From an uncultured Bacteroidota bacterium (GTDB lineage: Bacteria; Bacteroidota; Bacteroidia; UKL13-3), in NCBI GenBank assembly GCA_903834625.1, contig CAILJQ010000097.1, positions 1-34,002 of the forward strand: 34,002 bases of DNA, written 5' to 3'. The notes under the pieces are model-generated. The model saw only the letters and a program-made list of their open reading frames with translations, made no database searches and was not told the DNA's origin. A program made the translations under genes and the position numbers. Shown here piece after piece: positions 8,749 through 17,847 of this stretch. How positions within the stretch are numbered: the stretch's first letter is position 1; each line of letters begins with the position of its first letter.

Positions 8749-9963
8749 TTAGGCAGATTTTAGCTCTTCCAAAGCAAGATAAGTCATTAATCCTACACCC
8801 AAACTCAATGCCTTTTCATCAATATCAAAAGTGGGCGTATGCACACTAGAAACAATTCCTCTTTCTTCATTTCTAGTTCCTAATCTATAAAAACATGCTG
8901 GAGCAACTTGAGAATAATAAGCAAAGTCTTCAGCGGCCATCCAAATATCCAAATCAAGTACATTCTCTTCTCCTAAAAAGTCAATGGCAGCTTTCTTGGC
9001 ACGTGCTGTTACATGAGGGTCGTTCATAAGGAATGGATATCCCTTTCTAATTTCAAAATCAACTGTTCCGCCATATGCAGCCGCAATGTTTTGTGCGGTT
9101 TGAACCATTAATTCATGCGCCTTTTGTCTCCAAGATTCATCTAAGGTCCTAAATGTTCCTTCAAGATAAACTTCATTTGGAATTACGTTTGTTGCTCCGT
9201 TGGCAATCACTTTTCCAAAACTTAGTACCGTTGGTAAAATTGGGTTAGCTTGTCTGCTTACCAATTGCTGCAAGGCCGTGATCATTTGAGCTGTTATAGT
9301 TACAGGATCTATACATAAATGAGGCATGGCTCCGTGTCCACCTTTTCCTTTAATGGTTACATAAATTTCATCTGTACTTGCCATATATAATCCGCTTCTA
9401 AATCCAACTTTTCCAACAGGAATAAGCGGCATAACATGTTGACCAAGGATGCTATTCACTTTTGGATTTTCTAAAATCCCTTCTTGTATCATCATAGAAG
9501 CTCCACCAGGTATTTTCTCTTCACCTGGTTGAAAAATTAATTTAAAACTTCCTTCAAATTCACCTTTTAAACTTTGCAGAATACTTGCCACACCCAATAA
9601 ACAGGTGGTATGTACATCATGCCCGCAGGCATGCATTACACCATGGTTTTTAGATTTATAACTTACTTCATTTGCCTCTACAATTGGTAAAGCATCCATA
9701 TCTGCCCTAAGAGCTACAACTTTTTTAGTAGGGTTTTTACCTTCAATGAGTACCTCCAAACCTGTATTGGCCATAGGTTTAATTTGGGTAATACCTAATA
9801 ATTCTAATTGACTTTTTACATAGGCAACTGTTTCATATTCTTGAAAGGACAACTCGGGGTTGCTGTGAATGGTTCGTCTAATATCAACCAATTGATCATA
9901 TAGGGCAGTTGCCTTTGTTTGAATGCTATTCTTTAAACTCATATATGGCGCAAATGAAACCAA
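8749..9963 (-). CDS. M20 family metallopeptidase / amidohydrolase (hippurate hydrolase-like)
   Basis: IRRTIHSNPELSFQEYET, ALRADMDALPI, HACGHDVHTTCLLG, FQPGEE, WMAAEDFAYY. Confidence 0.93.
   Translation of the reverse strand: MVSFAPYMSLKNSIQTKATALYDQLVDIRRTIHSNPELSFQEYETVAYVKSQLELLGITQIKPMANTGLEVLIEGKNPTKKVVALRADMDALPIVEANEVSYKSKNHGVMHACGHDVHTTCLLGVASILQSLKGEFEGSFKLIFQPGEEKIPGGASMMIQEGILENPKVNSILGQHVMPLIPVGKVGFRSGLYMASTDEIYVTIKGKGGHGAMPHLCIDPVTITAQMITALQQLVSRQANPILPTVLSFGKVIANGATNVIPNEVYLEGTFRTLDESWRQKAHELMVQTAQNIAAAYGGTVDFEIRKGYPFLMNDPHVTARAKKAAIDFLGEENVLDLDIWMAAEDFAYYSQVAPACFYRLGTRNEERGIVSSVHTPTFDIDEKALSLGVGLMTYLALEELKSA
9097..9106 (-). repeat. GGTTCRRACC motif, site 5 (cGGTTTGAACC)
   Basis: Inside M20 peptidase gene. 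Confidence 0.6.
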
Positions 9964-10154: not shown

Positions 10155-10403
10155 ATGAAACTCAACAAAAACATTGCAGTAAGCGAGAACGGATTTATTT
10201 TTAATCCAGTTAGCGGCGATTCTTTTTCAACCAATCCATTGGGGCAGGAGGTAATTAGAATGATGAAAGACCAAAAGGAGAAAAAAGAGATTGTGAAAGC
10301 CATTGCAGAAAAATATGCGGCAGATGATTCAACCATTGAAAAAGACCTGAATGACTTTTTCCAAATGTTGTTGTCCTATCAATTAATCAATGAGCATGAG
10401 TAA
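10155..10403 (+). CDS. PqqD-like (RRE-type) small protein
   Basis: 82 aa: NIAVSENGFIFNPVSGDSFSTNPLGQEVIRMMKDQKEKKEIVKAIAEKYAADDSTIEKDLNDFFQMLLSYQLI has the PqqD-family layout (beta segment, N.lG..i...., eia..l...y, v..fl..L...gll). Confidence 0.75.
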   Translation: MKLNKNIAVSENGFIFNPVSGDSFSTNPLGQEVIRMMKDQKEKKEIVKAIAEKYAADDSTIEKDLNDFFQMLLSYQLINEHE

Positions 10404-11445
10404 GCGCAAAATAACAGTTGCTGTTACTGGGCTTAATAATATTGACAGTCCAGGTCCGGGCATACCGGTAATTAGGGCTTTAAAGGAAAGTGCCGAATTT
10501 GAAGTTCGTATTATTGGCCTTTCCTATGAAACCTTAGAGCCAGGTTTGTATATGCATGATTTAGTTGATAAATCATATAGCATACCCTTACCATCTTCTG
10601 GTATGGATAGCCTCATGTCGAGGTTAGAATACATACATTCTAAAGAAAATATTCAAGTAATCATTCCAAACTTTGATGCGGAATTGCATAGTTTTATAAA
10701 GCTTGGAAATAGATTAAAGGCAGAGTTGGGTATTGCCACCTTTATGCCAGATTTAGAAACCTTTGAATCTCGACACAAATCTGTATTATATGAGTTTGGT
10801 GAGAAAAATGGGGTGAAAGTGCCTAAATCTAAAATGATTTATTCACCAAACGAAATACATTCCATTGGGAATGAATTGGGTTATCCATTGGTGGTGAAAG
10901 GTAAATATTATGATGCAAGCATAGCCGCCACCCCTGAACAAGCGAATAACTACTTCCATAAAATATCTAATAAATGGGGACTTCCCATTATCCTTCAGGA
11001 GTTTGTTTCTGGTAATGAAGTAAACATTACCGCTATTGGCGATGGCAATGGAAATTGTATTGGGGCTGTTCCTATGCGCAAATTGTACATTACTGATAAA
11101 GGTAAAGCGTGGGCCGGAATATCCTTATTAGATGAAGAACTCTTAACAATTGCCAATAGAGTAATTGGGAACTCAAAATGGAGAGGTGGTTGTGAGTTGG
11201 AATTCATTAAAACCAAAGAAGGAAGTTATTATTTATTAGAGATGAATCCACGCTTTCCGGCTTGGGTTTATTTAGCAGTTGGTTGCGGTCAAAACCATCC
11301 AGAGGCATTGGTGAAATTGGCCTTAGGAGAGAAGGTAACGCCCTTTACAAGTTATCAAAATGGAAAATTATTTGTTCGATATAGCTTTGATCAAATAGTG
11401 GATATTAGTGAGTTTGAAAAGATTTCTACACTTGGTGAATTATAG
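10390..11445 (+). CDS. ATP-grasp domain ligase (carbamoyl-phosphate-synthase-like)
   Basis: YPLVVKGKYYDA, PIILQEFVSGNEVNITAIGD, YYLLEMNPRFPAWVYLA: ATP-grasp lysine, hinge and metal-binding E/N motifs. Overlaps upstream gene by 14 nt. Confidence 0.85.
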   Translation: MSMSKRKITVAVTGLNNIDSPGPGIPVIRALKESAEFEVRIIGLSYETLEPGLYMHDLVDKSYSIPLPSSGMDSLMSRLEYIHSKENIQVIIPNFDAELHSFIKLGNRLKAELGIATFMPDLETFESRHKSVLYEFGEKNGVKVPKSKMIYSPNEIHSIGNELGYPLVVKGKYYDASIAATPEQANNYFHKISNKWGLPIILQEFVSGNEVNITAIGDGNGNCIGAVPMRKLYITDKGKAWAGISLLDEELLTIANRVIGNSKWRGGCELEFIKTKEGSYYLLEMNPRFPAWVYLAVGCGQNHPEALVKLALGEKVTPFTSYQNGKLFVRYSFDQIVDISEFEKISTLGEL

Positions 11446-11463
11446 AATTAAATAGGTAAAATT

Positions 11464-12822
11464 ATGACAAAATTGAGTTATGAACGTCCGGTTATTCAAA
11501 AGTTAAATACCGGCATGATGAATAAATTTGGCACCAGAACAGAATATGCTCCGGTTAGCCATATAGAAGGTGTTGCGGTGAAAGATTTAATAGCAAAATA
11601 TGGGTCACCTTTGTTTGTTATTAGCGAGCAACAAATTAGGCGTAATTACCAAAATGCCTTGAGAGCATTCAAAACCCGTTACCCTAAGGTGCAATTTGCT
11701 TGGAGCTATAAAACGAATTATTTAAATGCTGTTTGCAATGTATTCCATCAAGAGGGATCTTGGGCAGAAGTAGTTTCAATTTTTGAATACAAAAAGGCAT
11801 TAGGTAATGGGGTTCCGGGAAACAAAATTATATTTAATGGCCCTGATAAATCTGAAGAGGATTTAACATTAGCAGTTCAAAATAAATCGCTTATTCATAT
11901 TGATCATTTTGATGAATTATACTTATTAATTGAAGTGGTTCAAAAGCTACAATTAAAAGCTTCAGTAGCAATTAGAGTAAACATGGATACTGGTATTTAT
12001 CCTATGTGGGATAGGTTCGGCTTTAATTATGAAAATGGTCAGGCTTGGAATGCCATTAATAAAATAATGAGTCATCCAGAATTGGAGTTAAACGGCTTGC
12101 ATTGTCATATTGGAACTTACATGTTAAGTGCTGGTGCATATGCAACTGCTGCTTATAAGTTATGCGATTTAGCCATTAACGTTAAGGCTAAGTTTAACAA
12201 AACCATTCAATACCTCGACTTAGGTGGTGGCTTCGCTTCGGCCAATACCTTAAAAGGAAGTTACCTGCAAGGTTCAGACATTATTCCTAGTATGGAAGAT
12301 TATGCAGAGGCTATTGCTTCAACCATTCTAAATTTTGGGTTCAAATCTGCCGATTTACCTACACTATTCTTAGAAACTGGCCGTGCCTTAATTGACGATG
12401 CAGGATATTTATTAGGTTCGGTAATAGCTACAAAAAGATTGAGCGACGGAAGAAGAGCAACTATCATGGATTTTGGGGTGAACCTATTGTTTACAGCATT
12501 TTGGTATAACCACAAAATTTCGCCTGCCCAAGATTTTTCACATCATACAGAAGACATGGTGGTGTACGGACCATTATGTATGAATATTGATTGTATCAGA
12601 GAAAGTGTGAACTTACCTCTCTTAAGTAAAGGAGACCAAGTGGTGGTGCATAAAGTAGGAGCGTACAACATGACCCAATGGATGCAGTTCATTCAAATGC
12701 GCCCTAATGTGGTGATGATAGACACCAAACAGGAAGTACATCTCATTAGAAACAAGGAGTCATTAGAAACCATGTTGAGATATGAAGAGATGCCAGCTCA
12801 CTTAAAGCAGGTGAATTTATAG
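11464..12822 (+). CDS. PLP-dependent fold-type III decarboxylase (Orn/DAP/Arg decarboxylase family)
   Basis: SYKTNYL (PLP Lys), HCHIGTY, LDLGGGFA, ETGRALI, YGPLCMNIDCI (Cys-xxx-Asp substrate motif), VGAYNMTQWMQF. Extra N-terminal segment MTKLSYERPVIQKLNTGMMNKFG. Confidence 0.88.
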   Translation: MTKLSYERPVIQKLNTGMMNKFGTRTEYAPVSHIEGVAVKDLIAKYGSPLFVISEQQIRRNYQNALRAFKTRYPKVQFAWSYKTNYLNAVCNVFHQEGSWAEVVSIFEYKKALGNGVPGNKIIFNGPDKSEEDLTLAVQNKSLIHIDHFDELYLLIEVVQKLQLKASVAIRVNMDTGIYPMWDRFGFNYENGQAWNAINKIMSHPELELNGLHCHIGTYMLSAGAYATAAYKLCDLAINVKAKFNKTIQYLDLGGGFASANTLKGSYLQGSDIIPSMEDYAEAIASTILNFGFKSADLPTLFLETGRALIDDAGYLLGSVIATKRLSDGRRATIMDFGVNLLFTAFWYNHKISPAQDFSHHTEDMVVYGPLCMNIDCIRESVNLPLLSKGDQVVVHKVGAYNMTQWMQFIQMRPNVVMIDTKQEVHLIRNKESLETMLRYEEMPAHLKQVNL

Positions 12823-12870
12823 TTGATTGATGCGCAAAAAAATTGTAAGATGCGCGCTGAATAACAAAGA

Positions 12871-15054
12871 ATGAAAACAGAATATAAGATAAGCTATTGG
12901 TTTGAGGCAACTATGCACAGCTATAGTCAGATCTTTTTTTCACTCAATAAATTCTTTGCTGCTATCATTCTTTTGGTTACCTTTTTTAGTCCATTTATTG
13001 GTTTATGTGGTTTGTTGGCTGTAACACTAACCAACGGTTTGGCTTATATATTTGGATTCAAACAACAAGATATTCGTGAAGGAATATTTGGTTTTAATGC
13101 CTTGTTATTTGGTTTAGCACTGGGGTACACCTTTGAACCAAATGCTGCATTTTGGGTACTGTTTGTAATTGCTTGCTTTACCCTCTTGGTGTTAATTGCA
13201 GTGTTTTCTGGAACCTTTGCTAAAATTGGATTGCCGTTTTTAAGCTTTCCTTTTTTGATTTGTTTTTGGATGATAACACTCGCAGGAAAGGAACTAAGCC
13301 ACCTTGCATATGCGAACCATTTTTTACCTAATATGGTTCAAATGCCTGGTCCAGCCAAATTGTTGTCTCTGTGGGTTCATTCAGCAGATAATTTGGAATT
13401 ACCTAGCCTGTTGCGAACATTTTTTCGAACCCTTTCGGCAACCTTTTTTCAGGATTCAATCCTCGGTGGAATGCTTATTTCATTGGGGTTGTTTTTGTTT
13501 TCAAGAATTGCCTTTTCATTAGCATTCATGGGCTTTTGTGTGGCCTTTTGGTCGTACCACTTTTTTGGCGCCAATGTGTTAGAGTTATCCAATAATTTGG
13601 TTGGTTCAAACTATATCTTTTTTGCCATTGCAATTGGTGGTTTTTATTTAATTCCTAATAAGTACTCATATGGTATAAGCATATTACTCATCCCGGTTTT
13701 AATGCTTATGCAAATAGCATGTGATAAACTGTTTAGCGGATTGAACCTAAAAACCTTCACCTTGGCATTTAGCCTGCTCACCGTTGTTTTTTTATATGCC
13801 CTACATCAGCGTTGGTTACATCAGTTTTTGCACTTGGTTACCATCCAATATTATTCCGCTGAAAAAACAGTGTATAAATATTTATCAGCCTTAAGTAGGT
13901 TCAAGGAAAGCCATCACAAAAACATAGCCTTACCTTTTTGGGGCGATTGGTTTGTAAGTCAAGGGTACGATGGTAAAATTACCCATTTAGGTGATTGGAG
14001 TAAGGCCCTAGATTTTGTTATAGTGGATGAAAATGACAAAACCTACCGTGAGCCTGGTATATTGGTGGGTGATTATTATTGTTACAACAAACCTATTTTA
14101 GCCCCAGCAGATGGTTATGTTTATGAGATAACCAATCATACAGAAGATAATGTGATAGGAGAGGTGGATACAGATAAAAACTGGGGAAATACGCTCATTT
14201 TAAATCACCTCGATGGCTTGTATACACAATTGAGTCATATCAAAAAAGACTCTTTTAAAGTGGCAGTTGGTGATTTTGTAACCAAGGGAACCATTCTTGC
14301 AACATGCGGTAGCAGCGGACGTTCACCCGAACCACATGTGCATTTTCAAGTTCAACATTCCCCCCAAATTGGTGCTAAAACAAGTGCTTATCCTATTTCT
14401 TGTTTCATAGAAAAAAGAAATGGAAAGGTAAGCTCCCTTAAATTACATGCCATACCAGAAGAGAATACCCACATAAGTAATATTGAAACCTATCCACTCT
14501 TAACAGATAGTTTTCACTTTATTCCCGGAAAAACTTTGCGTTTCCATAAAGATTCAAGCAATGAATTAATAGAGTGGGAAGTGGCCACAGATGCTTGGAA
14601 TAGGAGTTTTTTTTATGATAAAAAGAGTAAGAGTTATGCCTATTTTATTAATGATGGCAATAGGTTTTACTTCACAGATTTTGAAGGTAGTAGAGGCAGT
14701 GATTTGTTTCATTTTTACTTGAGTTGTTATGCGGTATTAATGGGGGTTTACCCAGAAATTGAGATGGAAGATCAAGTACCACTTATTCATTTTAATTATC
14801 CAGTTCTTATTTGGGTTCAGGACATATTAGCCCCATTTTATTTGTTTACCAAAGCTCATTTTTATGCAAAAGTGAAGGAGGTAAATTCAATTTTGGCATC
14901 TGGTACCATGCAGCTTGAATCACACATTGAGGCGAGTTTTATGGGAGTAAAAATGAAGAAATATACCTATCAAATAACCTTAGGCGAAAAGGGGATTCAG
15001 GAGCTTATTTGGATAAATGGGAGCAGAAAGGAGACTTGGGTATGCATTCAGTAA
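12871..15054 (+). CDS. Urea transporter-like membrane domain fused to M23 (LytM) peptidase domain
   Basis: Residues ~20-310: polytopic, UT-like (FFSPFIGLCGLLAVTLTNGLAYIFGFKQQDIREGIFGFNALLFGLALG). C-terminal half: ITHLGDWSKALDFV...PILAPADGYV...GNTLILNHLDGLYTQLSHIKK...GDFVTKGTILATCGSSGRSPEPHVHFQVQ = M23 H..D and HxH motifs. Confidence 0.85.
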   Translation: MKTEYKISYWFEATMHSYSQIFFSLNKFFAAIILLVTFFSPFIGLCGLLAVTLTNGLAYIFGFKQQDIREGIFGFNALLFGLALGYTFEPNAAFWVLFVIACFTLLVLIAVFSGTFAKIGLPFLSFPFLICFWMITLAGKELSHLAYANHFLPNMVQMPGPAKLLSLWVHSADNLELPSLLRTFFRTLSATFFQDSILGGMLISLGLFLFSRIAFSLAFMGFCVAFWSYHFFGANVLELSNNLVGSNYIFFAIAIGGFYLIPNKYSYGISILLIPVLMLMQIACDKLFSGLNLKTFTLAFSLLTVVFLYALHQRWLHQFLHLVTIQYYSAEKTVYKYLSALSRFKESHHKNIALPFWGDWFVSQGYDGKITHLGDWSKALDFVIVDENDKTYREPGILVGDYYCYNKPILAPADGYVYEITNHTEDNVIGEVDTDKNWGNTLILNHLDGLYTQLSHIKKDSFKVAVGDFVTKGTILATCGSSGRSPEPHVHFQVQHSPQIGAKTSAYPISCFIEKRNGKVSSLKLHAIPEENTHISNIETYPLLTDSFHFIPGKTLRFHKDSSNELIEWEVATDAWNRSFFYDKKSKSYAYFINDGNRFYFTDFEGSRGSDLFHFYLSCYAVLMGVYPEIEMEDQVPLIHFNYPVLIWVQDILAPFYLFTKAHFYAKVKEVNSILASGTMQLESHIEASFMGVKMKKYTYQITLGEKGIQELIWINGSRKETWVCIQ

Positions 15055-16370
15055 GACTCTTTCTTTTCCTTTACTTATTTTCCCTTTCGGGATTTGTAAT
15101 GGCACAAACCAATAAACTTACCTATACTTCTGTGGCTGTTCAAAGCGAAGAATATTTCAATTTGTTTCAATACAAGGAATTGATCAAATTAGGTGATGAT
15201 GCCTTGAAAGCGCACATAGATTTTTATGACTTACGAGTGAGATTAGGGCTGGCTCATTATAGAAAAAGCAATTATGAAGCTGCAAGCATTCATTTTGAAA
15301 GAGCTATTGAAATGAACCCATCAGACCTAGAAATATTAAAATATGCCTACCGGTGTTTTTTGTATACTGGGCAATACCAAAGAGCAAATATGCTATTGAT
15401 TCATTACCCTCAAATTAATCCAGATTATAAACCAAAGATGAAAGGTATTCACTTGGTTGAGGTAGAAGCTGGAAGCCTTCAAACCAGCCAAACTGATGCT
15501 TATGATGGACAAAAATTAGCGCCAAATGGCAATGTGGGTGAAGCCAATCTTTTCTCTAGCATGGATTACTTGAGGCTATACAATGAAGTATTGCTTTCAC
15601 CAGATACCAAATTGCATTTTGGAACAAATGTGTTTCAAACCAATCAACTTTCTATCCTACAGTTCTTTCAAAAAAATGTGAACCAAACCTATAGCTCGCT
15701 GAATATGCAAGCCAATGTAGGATTTAGTAAATTATGGAGTAGGGGCTGGGCAACAGGTTTAGGTATGGGGTTTTACAGACAAAATTATACACATCCATAT
15801 GTTGCAAGTGATATAAATCCGCCAACACCCAATTCTCTGGTTAAGGATACAAGTGAAATTACCCATGCTATTTCAATGAGTTTGTATGCAAGTAAACGCA
15901 TGAAGTTTATTGAACCTGTTGTGTTTTTGAATTATGGTAATTTTGATTTCTTACCAAGGTATCAATTGGAGATGGGATTAACCTATTATCCTTTGGCAAA
16001 AGATAAATTGTTTTCATACAGCAGCATTTCTTTGAACCATACTGATGGCACAAGTTCTATTGCTTATCAACAGAAAGTAGGGTATACCTTTCTTCCATTT
16101 ATGTCGGCAGAATTAAGTTATATGGGAGGAAGTTTAGACAATTACATGGGCCATATGGGCTTCTTAACTTTAAATACTTTTGATCCAATTACCTATTCTC
16201 TTGGAGTTGATTTGCACCTTTTTAAAGGTAAATACGCGCTTACTCCGGGTTACAGATACCAAGAAAGAAGCTCTTCTTATTTTTTAGAGGAAGGTTTTGG
16301 TAACATTGTTACCAAAAATATCAATTATATTAATCACTTATTTTTTATCACATTCAAATGTCAACTTTAA
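15042..16370 (+). CDS. TPR protein with C-terminal outer-membrane beta-barrel (YaiO-like)
   Basis: ATG at 15042 gives signal peptide MHSVRLFLFLYLFSLSGFVMAQ (ORF track start 15009 is upstream of it); TPR segment YEAASIHFERAIEMNPSDLEILKYAYRCFLYTGQYQRA; then alternating beta-strand C-terminus ending in an aromatic-rich strand LFFITFKCQL. Confidence 0.7.
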   Translation: MHSVRLFLFLYLFSLSGFVMAQTNKLTYTSVAVQSEEYFNLFQYKELIKLGDDALKAHIDFYDLRVRLGLAHYRKSNYEAASIHFERAIEMNPSDLEILKYAYRCFLYTGQYQRANMLLIHYPQINPDYKPKMKGIHLVEVEAGSLQTSQTDAYDGQKLAPNGNVGEANLFSSMDYLRLYNEVLLSPDTKLHFGTNVFQTNQLSILQFFQKNVNQTYSSLNMQANVGFSKLWSRGWATGLGMGFYRQNYTHPYVASDINPPTPNSLVKDTSEITHAISMSLYASKRMKFIEPVVFLNYGNFDFLPRYQLEMGLTYYPLAKDKLFSYSSISLNHTDGTSSIAYQQKVGYTFLPFMSAELSYMGGSLDNYMGHMGFLTLNTFDPITYSLGVDLHLFKGKYALTPGYRYQERSSSYFLEEGFGNIVTKNINYINHLFFITFKCQL

Positions 16371-16966
16371 GAAAAATAATGACGGCACTGCTGCTACTAG
16401 GAAGCATGCAAGCCAACGCGCAAAACTTGAGTGAAGTTTTTGCCAAAAGTTACGCAGCAGAAAAAAATGCAAATTATACCGAAGCTATTTCTGTATTAAA
16501 CGCCACTTCAAATGCCAATGTGTATGAAGTAAATTTGCGATTGGGCTGGCTACATTATGCCAATAAAAGTCATAAAGAGTCTATTTCATTTTATCAGAAG
16601 GCAATGACATTAAAACCTATGGCTACCGAGCCTTTGTGGGGATTAATTTATCCGCTTAGTGCTCAAGAAAATTGGGTAGCTGTGGAACAAGCATATAAAG
16701 ATATCTTAAAACTCGACCCTAAAAATTCAAAGGCAAACTACTATTTGGGTTCTATCTTTTTTTATAGAAAAGATTATACCACAGCTAAAAAGTACTTAAT
16801 GGAGGTAGTTCAGTTATATCCTTTTGATAGAGAAGCCTTATTGTTATTGGGTTGGAGCCAATTTTATTTGGGGAATAAAGCAGAATCGAAAAAAATATTT
16901 GAACATGTGCTTAACAATAAACCCGATGATAGCTCTGCGATAGAAGGATTGTCCTTGCTTAAATAA
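16358..16966 (+). CDS. Exported tetratricopeptide repeat protein
   Basis: Signal peptide IMTALLLLGSMQANAQ; TPR units (SISFYQKAMTLKPMATEPLWGLIYPL; VEQAYKDILKLDPKNSKANYYLGSIFFYRKDYTTAKKYLMEVVQLYPFDREALLLLG). Confidence 0.85.
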   Translation: MSTLRKIMTALLLLGSMQANAQNLSEVFAKSYAAEKNANYTEAISVLNATSNANVYEVNLRLGWLHYANKSHKESISFYQKAMTLKPMATEPLWGLIYPLSAQENWVAVEQAYKDILKLDPKNSKANYYLGSIFFYRKDYTTAKKYLMEVVQLYPFDREALLLLGWSQFYLGNKAESKKIFEHVLNNKPDDSSAIEGLSLLK

Positions 16967-16993: not shown

Positions 16994-17380
16994 GTGAAAG
17001 ATTTTAAAAAGTACTATATCATTCCTGCGCCTCCAGAGGATGTTTATTTGGCACTCACCATTGAGGCTACCATCATGCTTTGGACCAGTGATCAGGCTAC
17101 TTTTGTGGCTGAACCTAATACTGAATTTACTCTGTGGGATGGAAGTATTGTAGGTAAAAATTTAGAGTTTGAACCCAATAAAAAAATTGTGCAACAATGG
17201 TTTTTTGGAGAAGAAGAAACAGAGTCGCCAAGCATTGTTACCCTTAAATTGCATGAGCATAACCAAGGTACTTCATTAGAGGTGCGTCATACCAATATAC
17301 CCGACGATGTTTTTGATGACATAGCAGATGGTTGGACACATGAATATGCTGCCTCACTCATTGATTTTTACGACGAATAA
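16994..17380 (+). CDS. SRPBCC (START/AHSA1-like) domain protein
   Basis: KYYIIPAPPEDVYLALTIEATIMLWTSDQATFVAEPNTEFTLWDGSIVGKNLEFEPNKKIVQQWFFGEE...SIVTLKLHEHNQGTSLEVRHTNIPDD; GTG start. Confidence 0.8.
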   Translation: MKDFKKYYIIPAPPEDVYLALTIEATIMLWTSDQATFVAEPNTEFTLWDGSIVGKNLEFEPNKKIVQQWFFGEEETESPSIVTLKLHEHNQGTSLEVRHTNIPDDVFDDIADGWTHEYAASLIDFYDE

Positions 17381-17391
17381 AAACCAAACCT

Positions 17392-17847
17392 ATGAAAACA
17401 CTATTCACCTTTACATTATTGCTTTTATTTACCGGAGCCTTTGCCCAGGAAAACAAGGGTCTTTATGATGCAAACCTTGCACAAAAGCTTGGTGCAGATG
17501 CCTACGGAATGAAGAACTACATTTTTGTTATTTTGGTTACAGGTAAATACCTACCCAAAGATACAGCAGAAAGCAATAGGTTATTTGCAGGACATATGGC
17601 CAATATTGGTCAATTGGCTAAAGAGGGTAAGCTTATTGTGGCTGGACCTTTTGGTAAAAATGATAAAAGTTATAGAGGCTTATTTATTCTAAATGCCAAT
17701 AACAAAGAAGAGGCCATGAAATACCTTCAAGCAGATCCAAGCATTGCCATTGGGTTGTTTGATGTAGAATTGTTTCCATGGTATGGTTCTGCAGCCTTAC
17801 CTGAATACTTACCTATTCACGACAAAATTCAACAGAAAGGATTTTAG
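17392..17847 (+). CDS. YCII-related domain protein with signal peptide
   Basis: MKTLFTFTLLLLFTGAFAQ signal; FAGHMANIGQLAKEGKLIVAGPFGKNDKSYRGLFILNANNKEEAMKYLQADPSIAIGLFDVELFPW. Confidence 0.82.
   Translation: MKTLFTFTLLLLFTGAFAQENKGLYDANLAQKLGADAYGMKNYIFVILVTGKYLPKDTAESNRLFAGHMANIGQLAKEGKLIVAGPFGKNDKSYRGLFILNANNKEEAMKYLQADPSIAIGLFDVELFPWYGSAALPEYLPIHDKIQQKGF

Follow-up and report, generated by a model that had tools for sequence, protein, structure and literature searches.

Analysis of a 34,002-nucleotide window (the whole stretch of DNA analyzed) from contig CAILJQ010000097.1 of an uncultured Bacteroidota bacterium revealed a conserved six-gene cassette, here termed A to F, in which the decarboxylase encoded by gene C carries a leader-like N-terminal tail that very probably serves as the docking site for protein A, a discrete recognition element (RRE) of the type used by ribosomally synthesized and post-translationally modified peptides (RiPPs). 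As adaptors, RREs are known to hold precursor peptides for the enzymes of RiPP pathways; as the original prediction made from this sequence had pointed out, the cassette shows no sign of a radical SAM enzyme, HprK, or a separate precursor peptide, nor was any extra conserved small open reading frame (ORF) seen within it. Docking of A on the tail of C would account for the missing precursor, an explanation that the original prediction did not foresee. With an ATP-grasp ligase (B), a urea-transporter (UT) channel fused to an M23 metallopeptidase (D), a TPR/outer-membrane barrel protein (E), and a TPR protein (F), the cassette on balance appears to encode a pathway of amide ligation and decarboxylation that is guided by an RRE and has an exit route of its own.

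A tail of ∼33 residues opens all 86 of the C proteins, and is not present in the LysA of the same genome. Its consensus is [YF]6-E-[RK]-P9-x-[IVL]11-x5-G17-x3-K21-[FY]-G23, with Pro9 and Lys21 found in every sequence (86/86 each) and Glu7 and Gly23 in 84 and 85 of the 86, respectively. The change frequencies at the motif codons were 0.17, 0.12, and 0.51 for codon positions 1, 2, and 3, from which it follows that the tail is translated and under strong purifying selection. Discrete RREs bind a [YW]xxPx[LVIFA] motif in lasso and LPP leaders (PMC13381572), and the tail of C matches this motif in the form YxxPx[LIV].

The only significant match of A in the PDB was the lasso RRE TbiB1 (PDB codes 5v1u and 5v1v; E = 5.6e-7), with both entries being TbiB1-leader complexes (PMC13381572). 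Residues 15–79 of A align without a gap to TbiB1 residues 21–85, at a constant offset of 6. In LppB, Asp70 holds the leader Tyr by a hydrogen bond and Asn33 holds the Pro kink; the N33A mutation nearly abolishes leader binding and D70A weakens it (PMC13381572). By the same offset these two residues correspond to Asn27 and Asp64 of A, where position 27 is Asn in 78 of 81 loci and position 64 is Asp or Asn in 66 of 81, and most of the remaining leader-pocket positions are hydrophobic in A too. A is the sole protein of its kind in the genome. By homology A is an RRE, in which the pocket Asn and Asp predicted to capture YxxP have been kept. The original prediction had described A as an RRE-type carrier or recognition protein; the RRE assignment stands, and a LysW-like carrier role was ruled out, as the C terminus of A is variable and contains no conserved C-terminal Glu.

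Residue 64 of A and residue 6 of the tail were found to be paired. Among the 81 loci with both A and C genes, Asp or Asn at A64 goes with Tyr6 in 66 of 66 and any other A64 residue goes with Phe6 in 15 of 15. In the Phe6 loci A64 is Tyr, Ser, Ala, or His, with the Tyr64/Phe6 pair accounting for 12 of the 15, as if the hydroxyl had shifted from the peptide to the RRE. In a comparison that took in all 1530 columns from B, C, and D plus the remaining 81 from A, C6 alone separated the two A64 groups perfectly, and in an information-based ranking over 51 deduplicated loci the top three C columns associated with A64 (6, 20, and 19) all lie in the tail. Considered with the conserved pocket, this pairing makes docking of A on the tail of C probable. 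It also bears on a more conventional explanation, that of an ordinary RiPP cluster with its precursor elsewhere in the genome and the tail of C as an incidental second leader-like sequence. By homology A does qualify as a genuine RRE, and RiPP precursors are in some cases unlinked, but such an arrangement is improbable here given the residue pairing that ties A to the tail, the lack of an additional conserved small ORF in the cassette, and the single occurrence of the strict full tail motif in the genome, in C itself (a looser motif was not searched).

All six co-directional ORFs were confirmed at the positions listed in Table 1; for E, an alternative upstream start at TTG 15009 is possible. 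Maps built with tblastn and hidden Markov models for ∼85 loci revealed that the order A-B-C-D is kept in nearly every complete locus, usually with E-F downstream. F is kept in almost all complete loci; in L006, L047, and L048 it is located upstream instead, and a distant clade has a separate barrel gene of ∼280 amino acids behind F, one of these barrels giving a weak match to an OmpG-porin Pfam model. In an evenly sampled set of 396 Bacteroidota genomes, D (E ≤ 1e-60) and B (E ≤ 1e-40) were found in the identical 34 genomes (about 9%), belonging to 27 of 172 genera. Many families of Bacteroidota, as broadly defined in GTDB, have the cassette, which is patchy in the window's own genus, where approximately half of the genomes carry it. 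Since the gene order recurs in ∼85 loci and D and B are found together in one and the same set of 34 genomes, the clustering of the six genes is far beyond chance and the cassette is a real conserved unit, as the original prediction had proposed; its family assignments (PqqD, ATP-grasp, PLP decarboxylase, UT-M23, TPR/barrel, and TPR) were borne out by Pfam matches and the model of E, and in the collections searched the neighborhood of the homologs is conserved and not scattered. That a urea-uptake channel and a decarboxylase diverged from lysine biosynthesis are neighbors by chance is by far the least credible explanation: the families are individually ordinary, but the strict synteny and co-occurrence contradict it, as does the presence of a separate canonical LysA (G000:C58).

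Table 1. Positions of the cassette genes and of selected residues within the window
Feature	Description	Position	Strand	Basis
A	Discrete RRE (PqqD/lasso-B1 type), 82 aa	10155-10403	+	Pfam PqqD 5e-12
A codon 64	Asp, counterpart of LppB D70	10344-10346	+	Residue pairing with the tail of C
B	ATP-grasp carboxylate-amine ligase (PRK12767/ATPgrasp_Ter type), 351 aa	10390-11445	+	
C	Fold-III pyridoxal phosphate (PLP) decarboxylase with leader-like N-terminal tail, 452 aa	11464-12822	+	Orn/DAP/Arg decarboxylase 6e-31
C residues 1-33	Tail, [YF]E[RK]Px[IVL]x5Gx3K[FY]G, proposed docking site for A	11464-11562	+	Conservation in 86 loci
C codon 21	Invariant tail Lys, candidate modification or contact site	11524-11526	+	Lys in 86/86
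D	Urea-transporter channel, M23 metallopeptidase, and C-terminal beta domain	12871-15054	+	Pfam UT 7e-53, Peptidase_M23 2e-15
E	Signal peptide, N-terminal TPRs, 14-stranded outer-membrane barrel	15042-16370	+	AlphaFold2 (AF2) model
F	Exported TPR protein, 202 aa	16358-16966	+	TPR match; apparent signal peptide read off the sequence

The closest solved relative of C is FslC (217 bits), which decarboxylates N-citrylornithine in the rhizoferrin pathway. Against NCBIfam NF041039 (FslC-type N-acyl-ornithine decarboxylase) C scored 239 bits, below the cut-off of 500, and is related to this family and not a member of it. The conserved motifs of C include the PLP Lys83, GGG254–256, EtGR304–307, and CMNID372–376, of which the last, C-M-N-I-D, resembles the C-M-Q-H-D of FslC. 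The residues with which LysA binds diaminopimelate (DAP), a Glu in CE(S/T)xD and an Arg in RPxLY, are both absent from C and are found in the genome's own canonical LysA as CETD and RPMLY. These replaced motifs, together with the separate LysA, disfavor C as a DAP or a plain Lys/Orn decarboxylase, and by its motifs C is not a DAP decarboxylase. As fold-III decarboxylases require a free α-amino acid head, the substrate of C is likely to be an amino acid that is acylated or loaded via its side chain. The obvious maker of such a side-chain amide would be B, where catalytic residues such as Lys170, Glu269, Glu271, Glu284, Asn286, and Arg288 are conserved in at least 97% of 82 sequences; B, C, and D all retain their catalytic residues. 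Tail columns 19, 20, and 24 of C associate with residue 289 of B, beside the catalytic Asn286 and Arg288, although this association is only ∼1.8 times the core background and is confounded by lineage.

D is comprised of a UT domain (residues ∼12–312), an M23 domain (∼350–510), and a C-terminal beta domain (∼511–727), and Foldseek searches with its model returned dvUT and LytM-type domains. The M23 zinc ligands His372, Asp381, His489, and His491, including the HxH motif, are present in all 77 D sequences. The UT domain keeps most of the pore residues, including Gln and Phe, and at the position of dvUT Glu187 has mostly Ala, also Leu, Ser, and others, with Glu absent from the residues listed. 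Because this position has been replaced, the predicted small-solute channel need not conduct urea. Ten transmembrane helices were found in D with no further hydrophobic segment, which places its N and C termini on the same side of the membrane, and the loops on this side are richer in Lys and Arg in 77 of 77 sequences (mean 9.0 versus 2.8). The termini of UT-B are cytosolic, in agreement with the positive-inside side of D. The M23 module is consequently predicted to be cytosolic, adjoining A, B, and C, which conflicts with the periplasmic peptidase of the original prediction.

The C-terminal domain of D (window 14401-15051; ∼215 residues) is conserved and beta-rich, and has no evident match in Pfam or the PDB. 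Frame changes in D were observed in two loci, inside the UT-M23 linker (L132:9944-12198) and inside the M23/C-terminal part (L009:9992-12174); in each case a natural change and a sequencing error are both possible. Treating the split D of L132 as two separate genes was rejected, as the break falls in a linker that is homologous and contiguous, and the part downstream of it lacks a signal peptide. The UT matches in L050 belong to an unrelated UT-only gene. A separate membrane-anchored M23 protein resembling the M23 module of D is encoded in the window's genome and its relatives (G000:C284, L014).

In the AF2 model of E (pLDDT 83), N-terminal TPR helices lead into a set of 14 strands, and Foldseek matched it to FadL, OmpG, and BcsC; together E and F look like an exit route from the periplasm to the outside. 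This architecture would also suit a role in the envelope, close to the one in the original prediction: the cytosolic enzymes would produce a polyamine-like compound, and a periplasmic M23, F, and E would attach it to the peptidoglycan or outer membrane or use it in remodeling them. M23 enzymes are normally peptidoglycan hydrolases, E and F have envelope architecture, and stress-type regulators (an ECF, or extracytoplasmic function, sigma factor with Metal_resist/LTXXQ, AraC, and a histidine kinase) are located upstream in several loci. Unless the predicted topology is wrong, an envelope role is nevertheless unlikely, with the ten transmembrane helices and the positive-inside loops placing M23 on the N-terminal, cytosolic side in all 77 sequences.

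In the pathway that we favor on balance, A would grip the tail of C through its lasso-type Tyr/Pro/Ile pockets and thereby bring the ligase B, the gene for which overlaps that of A, to the decarboxylase. B would form an amide on an amino acid via the side chain, for example of ornithine or lysine, and C would strip the α-carboxylate to give an acylated diamine-like product, in a reaction analogous to that of FslC on N-citrylornithine. This product would exit via the UT channel of D, where the M23 module on the cytosolic face may trim or release it, and F and the TPR-barrel E would carry it across the outer membrane. Against this reading, on a tree of the C catalytic core the A64/C6 trait needs just three changes, with one strongly supported independent pair, such that a sign test on the pairing cannot be significant. 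Moreover, M23 enzymes normally act outside the cytosol, so the topology prediction for D may be wrong.

The same components could be arranged with the tail of C as the substrate itself, presented by A for B to load an amino acid via its side-chain carboxylate onto Lys21, after which C would decarboxylate it, the cytosolic M23 would hydrolyze the bond or the tail, and the product would leave through the UT channel. Such a scheme would work like BtrI/BtrJ/BtrK or LysW, with the arm built into the enzyme. The invariance of Lys21 at a fixed spacing from the docking motif and an M23 zinc site that is intact and predicted to be cytosolic are consistent with this arrangement, and the association of the tail with B289 is a weak hint in its direction, subject to the lineage confounding and low ratio to background given above. 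However, the role of Lys21 may be no more than a contact with B or with the core of C, and we regard a substrate role for the tail as unlikely, on a par with the envelope role. Slightly less likely again is that the cassette represents an RRE-dependent assembly line of a new class, with the leader fused to a metabolic enzyme: the tail, as a built-in carrier arm (Lys21), would be loaded by the ATP-grasp ligase and decarboxylated by the enzyme that bears it, and the product would be freed by a cytosolic M23 fused to the channel that serves as its exit. The RRE-guided pathway remains the preferred reading.

A, gap-free in its alignment with TbiB1, is closest to the discrete RREs of lasso and LPP RRE-leader pairs (TbiB1, FusB1, PbaB1, and LppB), sharing the Asn and Asp that capture YxxP. 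The YxxPx[LIV] motif of those leaders is shared too, but sits at the N terminus of a 452-residue PLP enzyme and not in a precursor peptide, and the precursor peptide, transglutaminase-like B2 protease, and asparagine-synthetase-like cyclase of lasso clusters were not found among the six genes, with no extra conserved gene in the flanks. The window's A scored 23.4 against TIGR04353 (GAK/HPr-rel-A), below the cut-off of 35 (a relative in L112 scored 36.9), and there is no HprK-related kinase in the cassette. The original prediction saw no correspondence to PQQ, lasso-peptide, or GAK-type systems, and the lasso and GAK features examined here were indeed lacking. By the sequence features compared, the cassette is set apart from the lasso, GAK, LysW, and LysA systems, each of which differs from it in at least one of these.

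FslC shares with C the C-M-x-x-D motif and the absence of the DAP-binding Glu and Arg, but the cassette has no NIS (nonribosomal peptide synthetase-independent siderophore) synthetase, and C has an RRE-type tail and an ATP-grasp partner. ATP-grasp and fold-III decarboxylase enzymes are likewise combined in BtrI/BtrJ/BtrK, which make the butirosin side chain; BtrK was among the PDB matches of C, and the amino acid on which BtrJ and BtrK act is held through its side chain. In contrast to that system, no acyl-carrier protein is present here and A lacks any conserved site for attachment, whether C-terminal or of pantetheine type. In borosins (OphMA) a leader/substrate-type peptide is physically fused to the biosynthetic enzyme, but borosins are not known to use a separate RRE and their fused peptide is the product. 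With the exopolysaccharide secretins BcsC, PgaA, and PelB, E shares periplasmic TPRs ahead of an outer-membrane barrel, differing in its 14 strands and in the lack of a polysaccharide synthase in the cassette. The urea transporters dvUT and UT-B share the UT fold and most pore residues with D, whereas D is fused to M23 and has mostly Ala in place of dvUT Glu187. No paper describing this gene set was found in the open-access literature searched, and the collections searched gave no match to a characterized pathway with the same genes. Each domain is known and, to our knowledge and within that literature, the combination of genes and the leader tag on a decarboxylase are undescribed.

No further gene family is common to most flanks, so that no conserved cassette genes beyond the six were identified; PADLOC gave no defense-system match and Rfam no RNA elements. 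In six loci (L003, L008, L041, L043, L044, and L049) a small regulator of the AraC type is encoded upstream of A, adjoining it in most and separated by one gene in L003; the N-terminal segment of this regulator is HMA-like, with the cysteines only partly kept. In L002, L039, and L046 the genes upstream of A encode an ECF sigma factor and a periplasmic protein of the Metal_resist/LTXXQ (Spy-like) kind, with a small protein encoded between the two, which hints at control by envelope or metal stress. A secreted protein of ∼280 amino acids that combines FG-GAP-like repeats with a C-terminal domain for type IX secretion is encoded directly upstream of A in a distant clade (L118, L119, L121, L124, L125, L127, and L135). 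Two sets of neighbors were seen in the window's own genus only, AHSA1-type and YCII-type genes after F (window 16994-17847) and an M20 amidohydrolase gene (window 8749-9963) divergent from A. The cassette of L006 lies on a contig labeled Victivallaceae (Lentisphaerota) and is very close to that of the Bacteroidales locus L003, reflecting either recent transfer or mis-binning.

If A docks on C as proposed, leader recognition would serve as an enzyme-recruitment tag in what appears to be small-molecule metabolism. This would also provide a reason why PqqD-like genes occur without a precursor peptide, and would make the tails of neighboring enzymes worth searching in such cases. The cassette is patchy yet widespread in Bacteroidota, suggesting that its product is probably ecologically meaningful.

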